Of a DNA stretch of 41,470 bases, positions 4,911-27,156 are shown in pieces. The notes below the pieces were generated by a model that had not been told where the DNA came from, searched no databases, and saw nothing but the letters and a program-made list of their open reading frames with translations. This DNA is from an uncultured Oscillospiraceae bacterium (lineage in GTDB: Bacteria > Bacillota > Clostridia > Oscillospirales > Oscillospiraceae), in contig CANQRM010000025.1 in assembly GCA_947626265.1 (NCBI GenBank), forward strand, positions 1 through 41,470, read 5' to 3'. How positions within the stretch are numbered: position 1 is the stretch's first letter; every line of letters begins with the position of its first letter. The position numbers and the translations under genes are program-made.

Positions 4911-4947
4911 AAAAAATACGCTGTGAAGCGCTCTTCACAGCGATTTT
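4911..4947. terminator. Bidirectional-looking terminator between ylmH and spoVAD
   Basis: A 10-bp perfect stem (4919-4928 with 4933-4942, four-base loop) is flanked by a run of A on the left and ATTTTTT on the right, so it has a U-tract on either strand. On the minus strand it directly follows the ylmH stop and should separate ylmH from spoVAD. Confidence 0.85.
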
Positions 4948-5694
4948 TTATAGATATATCTCCGTTTCCAAAAATGTCCGGTCTTTCCGCGACTGGCCGC
5001 CCAGGGACACCACCGCGCCCTTGCCCTTTCCCCGGAGGGAGATCACGTCCCCCTCGTGGATGGGCGCGTCCACGTGCAGGCACTGGACATAGTTCAGCGT
5101 GGCCGCGCCGGCCCGGATGAGCTCCGCCGCGGCGGTGCGGGAGAGGCCGAACATGCCGCTGGCCACCGCGTCCAGGCGCAGGCTCTTCACCGTGAAGGTC
5201 ATCTTTTTCACCTTCCGCTCCGGCACGGGCACGTCGGAGAGGGGGATGGGGGCGGTCTTCAGGCTCACCCGCCCGGCCTGCTTAAGCTCGTCGCAGAGGA
5301 GCTTTTCCACCGTGGGCAGGCAGAAGATATAGGCCGCGTCCTCCGCCACCCGGAAGTCGCCGATCCACTCCCGGCGGATGCCCAGAGCCAGCGCCGCGCC
5401 CATATAGTCCCGGTGGGTGGGGGTGCCGAAGAAGGCTGTGGCCTTCACGGCGCGGATGTGCTCGGATACGTCAAACCCCGCTTCGTCCATCCAGTAGGGG
5501 AGGAAGAAGGCGCACTTGCGCTCGCAGGCCCCGCCGCCCCCGTCCATATGGAGCGTCACGTCGGAAAGCCGCTTCGCCCAGGCGGCGACCTCCATCTGCT
5601 CGGCCATGGTGAGAAAGCCGGTGGCCGTGACCACGCTCTGCCTCTCACACCGGGCAGCCAGCTCCTCTATGCGCTTTTCAAGGTCTTTATCCAT
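4948..5694 (-). CDS. ylmH: YlmH-family S4-domain RNA-binding protein (RqcP2-like)
   Basis: This 248-aa protein has a mixed alpha/beta N-terminal domain (AFFGTPTHRDYMGAALALGI, then REWIGDFRVAEDAAY) and a C-terminal S4 RNA-binding domain at about residues 170-235 (SLRLDAVASGMFGLSRTAAA, then GDVISLRGKGK). Members often sit in division gene clusters. In Bacillus, YlmH/RqcP2 has been linked to ribosome-associated quality control, where it helps alanine tailing on stalled 50S subunits. Here it is not in a division cluster. It starts 6 bp after the stop of the GTPase-nuclease fusion, so the two are almost certainly one operon, which suggests a shared ribosome-related job. A terminator follows at once. 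Confidence 0.9.
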   Translation of the reverse strand: MDKDLEKRIEELAARCERQSVVTATGFLTMAEQMEVAAWAKRLSDVTLHMDGGGGACERKCAFFLPYWMDEAGFDVSEHIRAVKATAFFGTPTHRDYMGAALALGIRREWIGDFRVAEDAAYIFCLPTVEKLLCDELKQAGRVSLKTAPIPLSDVPVPERKVKKMTFTVKSLRLDAVASGMFGLSRTAAAELIRAGAATLNYVQCLHVDAPIHEGDVISLRGKGKGAVVSLGGQSRKDRTFLETEIYL

Positions 5695-5700
5695 TAAAAC

Positions 5701-8250
5701 TCAAAACTGCGACCGCTTCACCGCGTCGGCGATCTGGTCCAGGACCCACTCCACCTCGGTTTTGAACTCCCCGGAGGAACAGCGCAGCACCCCGGAGCGG
5801 AGGGCGCCCACCTGCACCATCCTGTCGGAGGTGACCACCCGGACGGTCTCGTTTTTGCCGATCTCGTCCACCAGCCGCTCGATATACATGTCCGCCGTCT
5901 CGCCCTCCTTGGTGTAGGCGACGCGAAGATTGCCGTGAGATTCCCGGCTTCCCTGGCCGCCGGGGACCTTGTAGGCGTCGAAGACGACGATGAGCTCGCT
6001 TTTGGTGTAGCCCTGGTAGTTGGCCAGCATGTTGAGGAGCTTCGACCGGGCGATGTCCAGGCTCTCCGCCGCGAGGACTTTGAGCTCGTCCCAGGCGAAG
6101 ATGACGTTGTACCCGTCCACGATGATGTGCTCGTGGTCCTTTCGTACCTGCATCTGGATGCCCACGGCGCTGTTGACCTGGGGGGCGGAATACTGCTTTC
6201 GCCGGATGGGGCCGAACTCCCGGACCATGATGGCCTCCAGCTCCTTGTCGTCGATGTTGAGATTCTGCCGCCGCACGGTGGGCGCCGCCGCCTCCGGGGC
6301 GGCGGGGTCTTTAAGGCCGCTGTCCAGGTGCATGTACTCCGGCACCTTGTCCCACTTCACGTTGAACCCCGCCCCGTGGGCGCAGAACACGCTGTCCGGG
6401 GTGTTCTCCACGTCCGCCTCCGGGTCGTAGCCCATGGCCTCGATGACGGCGTCCGCGTCGTGGCAGGGCCGGTATCCGGCCACATGACAGGTGAAGCGCC
6501 CCCGGCCGCCGGTGTAGGCGGCCACCTGTGCGGCGTAGTCGCCCATGGCGGACACGGGGGCCTCCCCGGTGAGCACCATCTGCTCCCCCTCGGGGACGGG
6601 GCTTTCATGGGTGCCGCCCATGGCCCGCACGTCGGTGATGGCCCGGCCGATCTGCTCGGCGGGGACGGAAAGGCGGAAGGCGTACCAAGGCTCCAAAAGC
6701 ACGCTCTCGGCCTGCATCAGTCCCTGGCGCACGGCGCGATAGGTGGCCTGGCGGAAATCCCCGCCCTCGGTGTGCTTCAGGTGCGCCCGCCCGGCCAGGA
6801 GCGTTATTTTCACGTCGGTCAGGGGCGAGCCGGTGAGCACGCCCAGGTGCTGTTTTTCTTCCAGGTGCGTGAGGATGAGCCGCTGCCAGTTCCGGTCCAG
6901 AAGGTCCTCGGGGCAGACGGTGGCCAGCTCTATGCCGCTGCCCGGCGCGCCGGGCTCCAGGAGAAGGTGGACCTCGGCGTAGTGGCGCAAGGGCTCGAAG
7001 TGGCCCACGCCCTCCACGCGGCTCGCGATGGTCTCCCGGTAGAGGACCTGGCCCGCGTCTATGTCCACGTCCACGTCGAAACGCTCTTTTATGAGGCTCT
7101 TGAGTATCTCGATCTGCACCGCGCCCATGAGCTGGACGTGTATCTCCCCCAGGCGCTCCTGCCACAGGATATGCAGTTGGGGCTCTTCCTCCTCCAGCAG
7201 TTTTAACTTCGGCAGCATGGTACGGGCGTCGCATCCCTTGGGCAGGCGGATGCGGTAACCCATGGCGGGGGTGAGGTAAGGCTCGTCCCCGTCCGGCTCC
7301 GCTCCCAGGCCCTGGCCGGGCCAGGTGCCGGAGAGGCCCGTGACGGCGCAGACCTGCCCGGCGGAAACGGCGTCGGCGGTGTCGTATTTGGCGCCGGAGT
7401 AGAGGCGTATCTGGCTTATCTTCTCTTCCACGGGTTCGGAGGCCCGCAGGGGCAGGTACCGGATGGGCATACGCACAGTGAGCTGCCCGCCGGTGACTTT
7501 GAGATAAGTCAGGCGGTTGCCCTGGCTGTCCCGGCCGATCTTATAGACCCGGGCCCCGAAGGGGGTGGGATAGGCAGGCTCCGCCGTATACCGGTCCAGG
7601 GCGGCCAGGAACTCCTCCACGCCGTCCAGCTTGAGGCCTGAGCCGAAGAAGCAGGGAAACAGCTTCCGTTCCCGTATGAGCCGTATGACAGTATCGTCGG
7701 CGAGAGCGCCGGCGTCCATATATTCGTCCAGGGCGGCCTCGTCCAGCATGGCTATGGCCTCGTCCCGGCCTGCGTTGTCGGGGGAGAAGTCCACGCAGGC
7801 TTCGCCGAGACGGGCCTGGACGTCCCTCATGAGGGCGGCCCTGTCCGTGCCGTTCACGTCCATCTTGGTGACAAAGAGGAACGCGGGGACCCGGTAGCGC
7901 TGCAGCAGCGCCCACAGCGTCTCCGTGTGGGCCAGGACGCCGTCGGTGCCGCTGATGACCATGACGGCGCAGTCCAGCACCTGCAGCACCCGCTCCGCCT
8001 CCGGGGAGAAGTCCACGTGGCCGGGGGTGTCCAAGAGCGTTATATCCGTATTGCCTACGGTGAACAGGGCCTGCTTGGAGAAGATGGTGATGCCCCGGGC
8101 CCGCTCCAGGTCGTGGGTGTCGAGATACGTGTCCCGGTGGTCCACCCGGCCCAGCTTTTTGATCTTGCCGGCCAGGTACAGCAGGGCCTCGGACAGGGTG
8201 GTCTTGCCCGCGTCCACATGGGCCAGGATGCCGACGGTCAGTTTCTTCAT
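5701..8250 (-). CDS. Ribosomal-protection/EF-G-like GTPase fused to a YacP/Rae1-type NYN nuclease
   Basis: This 849-aa cytoplasmic protein has two parts. Residues 1-640 follow the Tet(M)/Tet(O)/EF-G plan: G1 AHVDAGKT (10-17), switch I RGITI (52-56), G3 DTPGH (74-78), G4 TKMD (128-131), then domains II-V. Residues 641-700 are a linker. Residues 706-849 are a NYN/PIN-like nuclease domain of the YacP (Rae1) type, with acidic residues D712 in VDGYN, D758 in VFDA, D787 in ETAD and D809 in TSD. Tet(M) itself is about 640 aa and has no nuclease. The domain IV tip (about 486-499, GRAHLKHTEGGDF) lacks the Tyr-Ser-Pro-Val-Ser type loop that evicts tetracycline in Tet(M), so the resistance label is doubtful. 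Rae1 is a ribosome A-site mRNA endonuclease, so the fusion may cut mRNA on stalled ribosomes. The start at 8250 is fixed by the MKKLTVGILAHVDAGKT opening, and a weak GGAAAGG lies upstream. ylmH follows after 6 bp. Confidence 0.9.
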   Translation of the reverse strand: MKKLTVGILAHVDAGKTTLSEALLYLAGKIKKLGRVDHRDTYLDTHDLERARGITIFSKQALFTVGNTDITLLDTPGHVDFSPEAERVLQVLDCAVMVISGTDGVLAHTETLWALLQRYRVPAFLFVTKMDVNGTDRAALMRDVQARLGEACVDFSPDNAGRDEAIAMLDEAALDEYMDAGALADDTVIRLIRERKLFPCFFGSGLKLDGVEEFLAALDRYTAEPAYPTPFGARVYKIGRDSQGNRLTYLKVTGGQLTVRMPIRYLPLRASEPVEEKISQIRLYSGAKYDTADAVSAGQVCAVTGLSGTWPGQGLGAEPDGDEPYLTPAMGYRIRLPKGCDARTMLPKLKLLEEEEPQLHILWQERLGEIHVQLMGAVQIEILKSLIKERFDVDVDIDAGQVLYRETIASRVEGVGHFEPLRHYAEVHLLLEPGAPGSGIELATVCPEDLLDRNWQRLILTHLEEKQHLGVLTGSPLTDVKITLLAGRAHLKHTEGGDFRQATYRAVRQGLMQAESVLLEPWYAFRLSVPAEQIGRAITDVRAMGGTHESPVPEGEQMVLTGEAPVSAMGDYAAQVAAYTGGRGRFTCHVAGYRPCHDADAVIEAMGYDPEADVENTPDSVFCAHGAGFNVKWDKVPEYMHLDSGLKDPAAPEAAAPTVRRQNLNIDDKELEAIMVREFGPIRRKQYSAPQVNSAVGIQMQVRKDHEHIIVDGYNVIFAWDELKVLAAESLDIARSKLLNMLANYQGYTKSELIVVFDAYKVPGGQGSRESHGNLRVAYTKEGETADMYIERLVDEIGKNETVRVVTSDRMVQVGALRSGVLRCSSGEFKTEVEWVLDQIADAVKRSQF

Positions 8251-24775: not shown

Positions 24776-24930
24776 ACCAGGGCGGCCTCGCCCGACAGTG
24801 CCCCTCCCGCTAAAGGGCGTCGGAGCACGCAGGCCAGGTCTCCCTTTGCCGCAAGCGGCAAAGCTCGAGTGGCCCGCGGCTCCTCCTTTTCCCCATGAAA
24901 CCCGCTTCCCTGGGCTTTCATGGGGACCCA
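24776..24930. repeat. Intergenic repeat, copy A
   Basis: About 155 bp, roughly 90% identical by eye to copy B at 27157-27309, each just after a BspA-like gene. It contains two perfect stem-loops: CTTTGCCGC/GCGGCAAAG (24844-24863) and CCCCATGAAA/TTTCATGGGG (24891-24925). The rest of this 312-base gap holds the repeat's GC-rich tail and the promoter of the next gene. Confidence 0.85.
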
Positions 24931-25019
24931 TTACGCTCACCGAGCGCGTGCGGGGCACTGCCGGTTCTCGCCGCCCGTCGGATATGGCAGCCCCTCCGGG
25001 GGCTGCCATTATTTTCTGC

Positions 25020-25048
25020 TTGCATGCAATTGAAAAATAGTGTACAAT
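25020..25048 (+). promoter_or_regulatory. Promoter of the second BspA-like gene
   Basis: TTGCAT (25020-25025) and TACAAT (25043-25048) are 17 bases apart, in a locally AT-rich stretch. The transcript leader would be about 33 bases. Confidence 0.55.
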
Positions 25049-25086
25049 ACGGCATCATGATATGTTTGCGAAAGGAAAAGCTGAGA

Positions 25087-27156
25087 ATGAAGAGATGGCT
25101 ATCCCTTATGTTGATATTTATCCTGGCTCTGGGTCTCTGCGTCCCCGCTTTGGCGGCGGAGGAACTGACAGGACCCGACGCGCCGCTGCCCGCGGAGGAG
25201 GAGACTGTGCCGGAACCGCCGGAGGAGGCCGTGCCGGAAGTCCCGGAGGCCGCTGCGGCGGAGCTGTCGGAGGAGACTGTGATGGAAGCTCCGGAGGAGG
25301 CCGCCCCGGCTGAGGACGAGCCCATGACCATAGCATCCGGCACCTGCGGGGCGGGCGTCACCTGGGACCTGACCGGCACGACGCTGACCATCAGCGGCAG
25401 CGGCGAGATGCGTGATTACCCGGCCGGCGACAGCGTAACGACTGCCCCGTGGAGCGGACTGTCTATCACGACCGTGGTGATCAATGACGGCGTGACGAAG
25501 ATCGGCAGCTATGCCTTCACCCGCTGCACCAGGCTCTCCGGCGTCAGGATCCCGTCCACCGTGACGAATATCGGCGAGGGAGCCTTTGCCCAGTGCCGGG
25601 GCCTCACCTCCGTCAGCCTGCCTCCAAACCTGCAGACGATCGGCGCCAGCGCTTTTATGGAGTGCCTGACTCTGCGGAGCATCTCGATACCCAATACTGT
25701 GACCAGCGTGGGCCATGACGCGTTTGCCTACTGCTATGCCCTGGCCACCGCCAGCCTATCCTCCCGGGTGAGGAGCATCCCCCAGCGGGTGTTCGCCAAG
25801 TGCCGTAACCTTGTGTCGGTGACCATCCCCGGGACTGTCACCTCCATCGGCGACAGCGCCTTTGAGGGCTGCGAAAAGCTGGGGAGCATCACCATCCCCG
25901 GGACTGTCACCTCCATCGGCGCCAGCGCCTTCCGGGGCTGCGCGTCTCTCAGGAGCGTGACCATTCCCGCCTCGGTGCAGACCCTCGGCGGCTATTCCTT
26001 CGCCGACTGCACCAGCCTCTCCAGCGTGACGATCGTGAGCGCCTCCACCGCGGCGGAGAACACCGCCTTTGAAAATACCCCCTGGCGTGAGTCCCAGGGC
26101 AGTTTCGTCATCGAGAACGGCTATCTTGTGGCCTATCAGGGCCCCGGCGGCAGCGTGACCATCCCGTCTACGGTGACGGAGATCGGCGGATATGCCTTTG
26201 CCGACCGTACGGACGTCACGTCGGTGACCGTCCCCTCCAGTGTCCGCCGCATCGACGACCGGGCCTTTATATCCTGCGGCCTGCAGCGCGTGATCATCTC
26301 CTCCGGCGTGACGGCCATCGGCAGCGAGGCGTTTTTGAGCTGCGCCAGCCTTGCGCGCGTGACCATCCCCTCCACCGTCACGGCCATCGGTGACAGGGCG
26401 TTCTTCGGCTGCCGGGCGCTGGAGAGGGTGACCATCCCCGAGGGCGTGAAGACCATCGGCGCCGGCTGCTTCCGGGCGTGCGTGGCCTTGACCACGGCCA
26501 TTGTCCCGTCCACCGTCACCTCCATCGGCGAGTATGCCTTTGCCGAATGCCGGGGGCTGGAGGACCTGGTCATCAACGGCGCCGTATTCACCTACGGGGA
26601 TGATGAGCTGGCCAACACCGTGACCGTCTACGGGAACGGGACAGGCACCGCCCGGCAGTATGCCGCCGATATGGGCGTGCGCTATGCCGAGGGCTGGTCA
26701 GGCGAACCGGAGGAGCCGGATGTCCCTGATGAGCCCGCGGAGATCCAGCCGCCCACGGGTGGCACCGGCTGGCGGTACGTGCCGGAGACGGGGGACTATT
26801 ACTACTTCAAGGACTATGTCCGCAAGGGCGACTACTGGGTGGGCTTCGCCGACGGCGCAAGCGCCTGGGCCAACAACTGGTACTATGCCGACGCAACGGG
26901 GAAGCTGCTCACCGGGCTGCAGTACCTGGACGACCTCAAGGGCGGCAAGGCCTGGTACATGCTCCAGACCACCGACTATCATGGGGAGATCGGCAAGATG
27001 CTCACCGGCTGGCAGTGGACCTACTCCGACAAGGGCGAGGGCTATTTCAGCCCCAAGTATGGTTCTCAGGGCATGTGCACCTGGAACCAGGCCTGGGGCA
27101 GCTATAACGCCTCCACCGGCCTCTGGGGCGACGGTCTGGCGCACAGGGGAAGCTAA
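25087..27156 (+). CDS. BspA-like leucine-rich-repeat surface protein, paralog lacking the wall-binding block
   Basis: This 689-aa secreted protein has signal peptide KRWLSLMLIFILALGLCVPA with cleavage after ALA, an acidic Pro/Glu linker (about 25-82), the cap SGTCGAGVTWDL, and about 15 LRR_5 repeats in the same order as in the gene at 22207. The degenerate ninth repeat (AENTAFENTPW, then GYLVAYQGPGG) is also matched. It then goes directly through a short EPEEPDVPDEPAEIQPP linker to the shared C-terminal ~125-residue domain (GWRYVPETGDYYYFKDY to the end), without the ~150-residue wall-binding repeats of its paralog. The ATG at 25087 has AAAGGA 10 bases upstream. It has its own promoter. The two genes are clearly a tandem duplication. 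Confidence 0.9.
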   Translation: MKRWLSLMLIFILALGLCVPALAAEELTGPDAPLPAEEETVPEPPEEAVPEVPEAAAAELSEETVMEAPEEAAPAEDEPMTIASGTCGAGVTWDLTGTTLTISGSGEMRDYPAGDSVTTAPWSGLSITTVVINDGVTKIGSYAFTRCTRLSGVRIPSTVTNIGEGAFAQCRGLTSVSLPPNLQTIGASAFMECLTLRSISIPNTVTSVGHDAFAYCYALATASLSSRVRSIPQRVFAKCRNLVSVTIPGTVTSIGDSAFEGCEKLGSITIPGTVTSIGASAFRGCASLRSVTIPASVQTLGGYSFADCTSLSSVTIVSASTAAENTAFENTPWRESQGSFVIENGYLVAYQGPGGSVTIPSTVTEIGGYAFADRTDVTSVTVPSSVRRIDDRAFISCGLQRVIISSGVTAIGSEAFLSCASLARVTIPSTVTAIGDRAFFGCRALERVTIPEGVKTIGAGCFRACVALTTAIVPSTVTSIGEYAFAECRGLEDLVINGAVFTYGDDELANTVTVYGNGTGTARQYAADMGVRYAEGWSGEPEEPDVPDEPAEIQPPTGGTGWRYVPETGDYYYFKDYVRKGDYWVGFADGASAWANNWYYADATGKLLTGLQYLDDLKGGKAWYMLQTTDYHGEIGKMLTGWQWTYSDKGEGYFSPKYGSQGMCTWNQAWGSYNASTGLWGDGLAHRGS

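Follow-up and report, generated by a model that had tools for sequence, protein, structure and literature searches.

What is the function of a protein in which a translational GTPase carries a Rae1-type nuclease at its C-terminus, and does the ylmH gene behind it belong to the same system? The protein is encoded on contig CANQRM010000025.1 of an uncultured Oscillospiraceae bacterium (assembly GCA_947626265.1), positions 1 to 41,470 of which constitute the window analysed here. We prefer to read it, with a probability somewhat below one half (about 0.45), as a Rae1 which its GTPase delivers to ribosomes, where it would cut the mRNA; YlmH would be an occasional partner.

Fusions of this kind, Tet-NYN, were reported in ten species of Clostridiales and proposed to be a variant of tetracycline resistance (Atkinson 2015, PMC4342817). 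The window protein was matched to them via the published description, a Tet-type GTPase with a C-terminal YacP-like NYN domain. The architecture is not new; it has been in print since 2015 and is therefore not a discovery of the present analysis. The 2015 proposal predates the description of Rae1, which was reportedly first given by Leroy in 2017. The present account differs from that of 2015, in which the fusion was read as a possible resistance mechanism, in the far wider spread of the fusion, the absence of the Tet tip, the apparent replacement of standalone YacP and the existence of a ylmH-linked clade. Within the literature searched (subscription papers and preprints lay outside its scope) the fusion is mentioned in Atkinson 2015 only. 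The observation itself is confirmed, and the interpretation first attached to it is partly supported.

Architecture of the fusion protein

The open reading frame and its domains were assigned by profile and sequence searches (Pfam, NCBIfam, phmmer), and the features are collected in Table 1. Pfam places GTP_EFTU at residues 4-222, EFG_IV at 400-514 and EFG_C at 517-598, with EF-G_D2 (231-309) and EFG_III (328-397) each scoring under its own curated cut-off. Having GTP_EFTU, intact G motifs and EFG_IV/EFG_C, the protein belongs to the EF2 family of translational GTPases. Conservation spans the whole length of the 65 aligned fusions (L142 and L151 were excluded beforehand as truncated), and the catalytic residues H78, T55, K129 and D131 are invariant in all of them; the position of H78 is occupied by Tyr in one of 32 sequences from the contig-scan set.

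The NYN_YacP domain (PF05991) is found with an E-value of 3.8e-43 and 147.8 bits against a curated cut-off of 24.6, and phmmer aligns it to the structures of B. subtilis YacP/Rae1 (5mq8 and 5mq9, E 1.7e-23). Rae1 has been described as an endoribonuclease of the ribosomal A site (PMC6613710). The fusion shares with it the NYN fold family and the acidic quartet: D712, D758, D787 and D809 coincide with Rae1 D7, D53, D81 and D104, and all four are invariant in the 65 aligned fusions as well as at the 80 loci examined in a contig scan (the best 80 of at least 543 stretches). A failure of these residues to match Rae1/YacP had been named beforehand as grounds for abandoning the prediction; they match, and the Pfam domains together with the invariant active site bear out the joining of a translational GTPase to a Rae1-type NYN domain. 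The two differ in that Rae1, with about 170 residues, stands alone, whereas the window domain is fused and has about 25 tail residues fewer.

The spacing between residue 641 and D712 amounts to 70 residues in the window protein and ranges from 66 to 122 across the 65 fusions. A zinc site formed by C596, C623, H625 and H641 was considered and dropped because C623 and H625 are not conserved (C623 is Tyr or Phe in 8 of the 65 sequences, H625 is variable in 12).

The tip of domain IV carries the conserved motif H-x-K-H-T-E-G-G-D-F at the place where one Tet(M) and one Tet(W) protein, taken for comparison, have YSPVSTPADF. H490 is kept in 62/65 fusions and in 13 of the 14 GTPase-only proteins, H493 in 62/65 and 14/14, respectively. 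Judged by its sequence, the tip with its histidine motif is EF-G-like and not Tet-like, an assignment which is new here. The fusion resembles EF-G in the domain order and in the tip histidine; it differs in being scored as non-EF-G in NCBIfam (260 bits against a cut-off of 659 for the EF-G model) and in coexisting with other EF-G-like genes in the genus of the window.

Table 1. Position of the fusion gene, its parts and the adjoining elements in the window.
Feature	Position	Strand	Basis
Fusion gene, 849 aa, translational GTPase with YacP/Rae1-type NYN nuclease	5701..8250	(-)	ORF, Pfam, 65 aligned fusions
GTPase part, residues 1-598, G domain to EFG_C	6457..8250	(-)	Pfam
Domain IV tip, residues 486-500, AGRAHLKHTEGGDFR	6751..6795	(-)	alignment; H490 = T. 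thermophilus EF-G H573
Conserved motif, residues 620-641, SVFCAHGAGFNVKWDKVPEYMH; natural C-terminus of the closer GTPase-only orthologues	6328..6393	(-)	alignment
Linker, residues 642-708, variable except the short E670-L-x-x-I674 block	6127..6327	(-)	alignment
NYN_YacP nuclease domain, residues 709-847	5710..6126	(-)	Pfam, Rae1 alignment
ylmH, 248 aa, YlmH_RBD and S4 region, sole ylmH of the genome	4948..5694	(-)	Pfam, alignment
Intrinsic terminator 3' of ylmH, hairpin and T-run	4919..4942	(-)	folding

Spread of the fusion and apparent replacement of standalone YacP

The single YacP domain of the window's genome is the one in the fusion. Among 150 genomes of the family, 92 have a YacP match, 92 a close GTPase match and 90 both, which disposes of the concern that the fusion might be unique to one assembly. 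The remaining cases are two genomes with the NYN match only (G026 and G103, both at contig starts) and two with the GTPase only (G053 and G100). All 92 YacP-bearing genomes have a single copy (the two matches of G131 are adjacent pieces of one region), and in 88 of them it lies inside an open frame of at least 602 aa.

A sample of 398 genomes of the phylum gave 219 with a YacP match, 38 with a GTPase match and 28 counted as fused frames; two GTPase candidates were scored per genome, so second copies may be missed. None of the 28 fusion genomes contains a standalone YacP, each having exactly one YacP, and the only genomes with two matches (G353 and G448) are not among them. YacP is present in 191 of the other 370 genomes, which puts the naive chance of finding 0/28 at 1.5e-9 if shared ancestry is ignored. 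From this absence of free YacP the fusion appears to stand in for standalone Rae1 in these Clostridia, a relation which is new here.

The contig scan of named genomes gave at least 543 confirmed stretches, the best 80 of which were examined (the remainder may include unfused relatives). These 80 belong to Oscillospiraceae, Lachnospiraceae, Intestinimonas, Ruminococcus flavefaciens FD-1, Anaerovorax odorimutans, Fusibacter and others, and none of them has an internal stop. In the window's genus the fusion is present in all 35 genomes (species). The wide spread and the intact frames mean that the fusion is neither unique nor an accident of assembly.

Proposed mode of action

The EF-G/Tet-like body would occupy the factor site of the 70S ribosome, as is known for the family. 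Its domain IV would reach the A site with the histidine-bearing tip. Once the protein is bound, or once GTP is hydrolysed, the NYN domain on its linker of about 70 residues would cut the mRNA in or close to the A site, in the manner of Rae1. The cut may mark a paused or selected message for decay, the truncated mRNA being left to general rescue or ribosome quality control (RQC). In the one clade in which ylmH stands directly behind the fusion, the arrangement would fit a co-supply of an RQC factor, the coupling being optional. In EF-G-type factors domain IV occupies the A site; a cut made there by the very same molecule would therefore have to come after a movement of this domain, or else fall downstream in the mRNA channel. 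We infer the cutting, its dependence on the GTPase and any role of the fusion in rescue; binding to the ribosome, mRNA as the substrate, control by GTP, the position in the A site, the purpose in decay or rescue and the help of YlmH are postulated likewise.

It is conceivable, although rather unlikely, that the fusion represents a distinct class of translation factor, in which the GTPase would test the A site of a paused ribosome via domain IV and then swing the Rae1 nuclease, covalently joined to it, towards the message. Sensing the pause and destroying the mRNA would be parts of one GTP-driven cycle. In much of the gut Clostridia such a factor would have taken the place of free Rae1, and in one clade it would have become coupled to the RQC factor YlmH.

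If the preferred reading is correct, a one-chain GTPase-nuclease serves many of the abundant bacteria of the gut to destroy ribosome-bound mRNA. With recognition and cutting placed on one polypeptide, ribosome quality control of this type would be directly testable. Its apparent substitution for Rae1 and its lack of the Tet tip make this overlooked, widespread and mis-named protein accessible to direct tests.

Several observations weigh against delivery of a Rae1 by the GTPase. YacP is absent altogether from 58 of the 150 family genomes, and the activity is therefore dispensable. The G4 motif reads TKMD instead of NKMD in the window protein and 15 other fusions (residue 128 is Asn in 46, Thr in 16 and Ser in 3 of the 65). 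GTPase-only orthologues are found in 2 of the 150 family genomes, in six close cases of the phylum sample and on a megaplasmid of L. salivarius, and linkage to ylmH is limited to a minority and, among species of the window's genus, interrupted by ORF insertions. The window fusion also lacks the full-length C-terminal tail of YacP: only 40 residues follow D809, compared with 61-68 in 23 of 24 standalone YacP proteins (no value was obtained for one). Substitution of R166 in the tail of B. subtilis Rae1, or deletion of nt 469-473, abolishes function (PMC6613710), and the short tail is thus a real point against a simple equivalence with Rae1. The length of this tail varies from 36 to 67 residues within the family, and fusions elsewhere mostly have it in full.

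GTPase-only orthologues and a possible independent action of the two parts

The nearest nuclease-free relatives, annotated as "Translation factor GTPase family protein" in Ligilactobacillus salivarius (pMP118) and other Bacillota, share 39-51% identity with the GTPase of the fusion, the same tip and the same C-terminal motif; they differ in stopping at the start of the linker, without an NYN domain. The closer of these orthologues terminate directly past the motif SVFCxxGxxxxVxW....MH, which indicates that the GTPase was already complete when it acquired the nuclease at its end. Their existence means that the GTPase also serves a purpose of its own and is no mere carrier of the nuclease. They provide a natural control for the contribution of the nuclease.

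A tree of 75 rows (L089, L090, L092, L095, L098, L167, L169 and L170, all present in an earlier tree, were removed for length) is compatible with one gain and one loss of the nuclease, i.e. two changes. The clade of 62 fusions and the L. salivarius protein has an SH-aLRT support of 98, while several long branches are unsure in their place. In trees of the NYN domain the fused (63) and standalone (24) domains separate. The likely order, new here, is one fusion event onto a nuclease-free GTPase followed by one later loss.

One alternative is a separate translation factor, active in back-translocation, pause relief or splitting as other relatives of EF-G, with a tethered NYN decay enzyme which cuts independently of the GTPase cycle. 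GTPase-only orthologues in Bacilli and in two genomes of the family, the long and variable linker and a tree that fits the joining of NYN to an older GTPase would all be expected from it. It accounts less readily for the fact that the two domains remain joined wherever a sampled genome of the family has both (contig ends and a broken frame excepted) and that free YacP occurs in no sampled fusion genome. We regard this alternative as doubtful but worth serious consideration.

A joint occurrence of GTPase-only proteins with free YacP, which could have served as a Rosetta-stone argument, was looked for and gave no signal (4/6 close cases in the phylum sample and 0/2 in the family, against a background of 191/370). 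On its megaplasmid the nuclease-free GTPase of L. salivarius (L180:3529-5920) adjoins the gene of ribosomal protein S14 (rpsN) and a putative metal homeostasis gene, an arrangement that possibly indicates a link to altered ribosomes. A second, remoter GTPase-only group of Bacillota (L166-L170, 32-33% identity) is devoid of the C-terminal motif, and its domain IV looks nearer to Tet in four of the five members.

With the ribosome held by the GTPase, the nuclease could also process rRNA or tRNA, in line with an older prediction for YacP; Atkinson 2015 (PMC4342817) cites a proposal that the domain takes part in the maturation of these RNAs. Since the action of Rae1, the YacP that has been studied, is reported to be on mRNA within the ribosome (PMC6613710), we consider this improbable.

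Relation to tetracycline-resistance proteins

The ribosomal protection proteins Tet(M), Tet(O) and Tet(W) share the domain order I-V with the fusion and constitute its nearest NCBIfam family. The fusion is only 28-29% identical to them and differs in the tip of domain IV, in the C-terminus and in the extra nuclease. Its best NCBIfam model, tet_protect, gives 385.9 bits, half of the curated cut-off of 775. The GTPase, at first called Tet(M)/EF-G-like, is accordingly not Tet(M) proper, and the tip which would contact the drug is different.

The proposal of 2015, a Tet-type ribosomal-protection protein that has gained RNase activity (PMC4342817), agrees with tet_protect being the best model (386 bits) and with the RefSeq name "TetM/TetW/TetO/TetS family" of the Agathobacter fusion. 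Besides the low score, it has to contend with the absence of the loop III sequence of Tet(M)/Tet(W), the part of domain IV credited with tetracycline displacement (PMC4750697), with the presence of the gene in 35/35 species of the window's genus and with its full-length occurrence in just 2 of 1335 matching plasmid records. Substitutions at S508-V510 can stay active if the shape of the loop is preserved (PMC4750697); the sequence by itself therefore does not exclude drug release by the fusion. We nevertheless find a resistance function quite improbable.

The idea of a mobile resistance gene was likewise rejected: at least 80% of the fusion is held by only the two plasmid records and by 2 of 101 phage records, and a search for near-identity among plasmids returned one short match. 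The two phage entries (MT835563.1, UNVERIFIED, and MT835514.1) are unannotated "Bacteriophage sp." records with a near full-length fusion, and may be bacterial contigs.

RefSeq applies the label "TetM/TetW/TetO/TetS family tetracycline resistance" both to the Agathobacter rectalis fusion (L284, NZ_CP143948.1) and to the nuclease-free orthologue of L. salivarius pMP118 (L180). Contrary to this label, the Tet tip is absent across the aligned family, the Agathobacter protein itself standing outside the alignment. A resistance label given despite the missing Tet loop means that resistome counts of gut Clostridia may be inflated.

Linkage to ylmH

The stop codon of the fusion is separated from the start of ylmH by 6 bp. 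The YlmH_RBD domain of the window protein scores 32.2 bits against the Pfam cut-off of 23, while NCBIfam TIGR03069, whose title is that of a photosystem II protein of the Sll1252 family, scores 101.1 bits, below its cut-off of 201.55. The two H69-contacting arginines, R182 and R195 in B. subtilis and both required there for the function of YlmH (PMC11317155), are matched by R173 and R186, which supports an intact YlmH beside the fusion. RqcH is encoded in the same genome, which also has an S4-domain frame of 109 aa, a candidate RqcP.

The hairpin of the terminator behind ylmH, 4942-4919(-), folds better than 200/200 shuffled sequences (z -5.57). A GC-rich hairpin in the 64-bp gap upstream of the fusion is not significant (z -1.29, 22 of 200 shuffles being as good), and no promoter-like site was found on the strand of the fusion between 3300 and 11000. 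Of the predicted two-gene unit, the close spacing and the 3' end are thereby supported and the 5' boundary is not.

Both genes occur in 82 of the 150 family genomes. They are adjacent in 16, always with the strand and order of the window; in 6 they share a contig but lie at a distance, and in 60 they are on different contigs, where the draft state of the assemblies may conceal some linkage. On the 80 scanned contigs (74 with at least 900 nt downstream) the pair was found in 7 cases. The expected linkage in relatives is thus real in part of the family, and the notion of YlmH as a constant partner does not hold. In the tree ylmH follows directly in 14 of the 20 rows of the window's clade, with two linked rows outside it, and this character needs 7 changes within the family. 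Even within the window's genus, the distance to ylmH is at most 131 nt at 12 of 30 loci and 171-1007 nt at another 12, and no ylmH lies in the fetched stretch at 6 (two of these stretches being shorter than 600 nt). Complete ORFs of 188-285 aa, different and unrelated, are inserted between the two genes at L104, L106, L107, L113, L118 and L120. Reverse-strand ORFs over the same stretch aside, ylmH is the sole neighbour common to more than three of the 21 linked loci. A set of 39 loci, not counting the member of the window's own genus, a biased sample drawn mostly by best NYN score, gave no ylmH and no shared neighbour, and a search with the window's YlmH found none at 20 fetched loci outside the family. 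The pairing is thus genuine but loosely kept, a trait of one clade.

A dedicated two-gene rescue module, in which the GTPase would find stalled ribosomes, NYN would cut and YlmH would take the freed 50S subunit, is highly improbable in view of this scatter (ylmH elsewhere in 66/82 genomes; at the 30 loci of the genus, 12 with 171-1007 nt in between and 6 with no ylmH in the fetched stretch; 0/20 outside the family), the direct adjacency in the window's clade, the intact YlmH residues and the presence of RqcH notwithstanding.

In two genomes of the family (G010 and G112, loci L154 and L155) a ylmH 43-45% identical to that of the window occurs without a YacP match or an adjoining fusion.

Other features of the window

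The next gene downstream of ylmH on the same strand is spoVAD, and the fusion is preceded on its strand by an acetyltransferase-like gene and two further genes. A role in defence was rejected, PADLOC giving no match, and so was a structured RNA, there being no Rfam match in the window. Positions 24895-27156 encode a large BspA-type leucine-rich repeat protein (LRR_5, E 2.5e-106).

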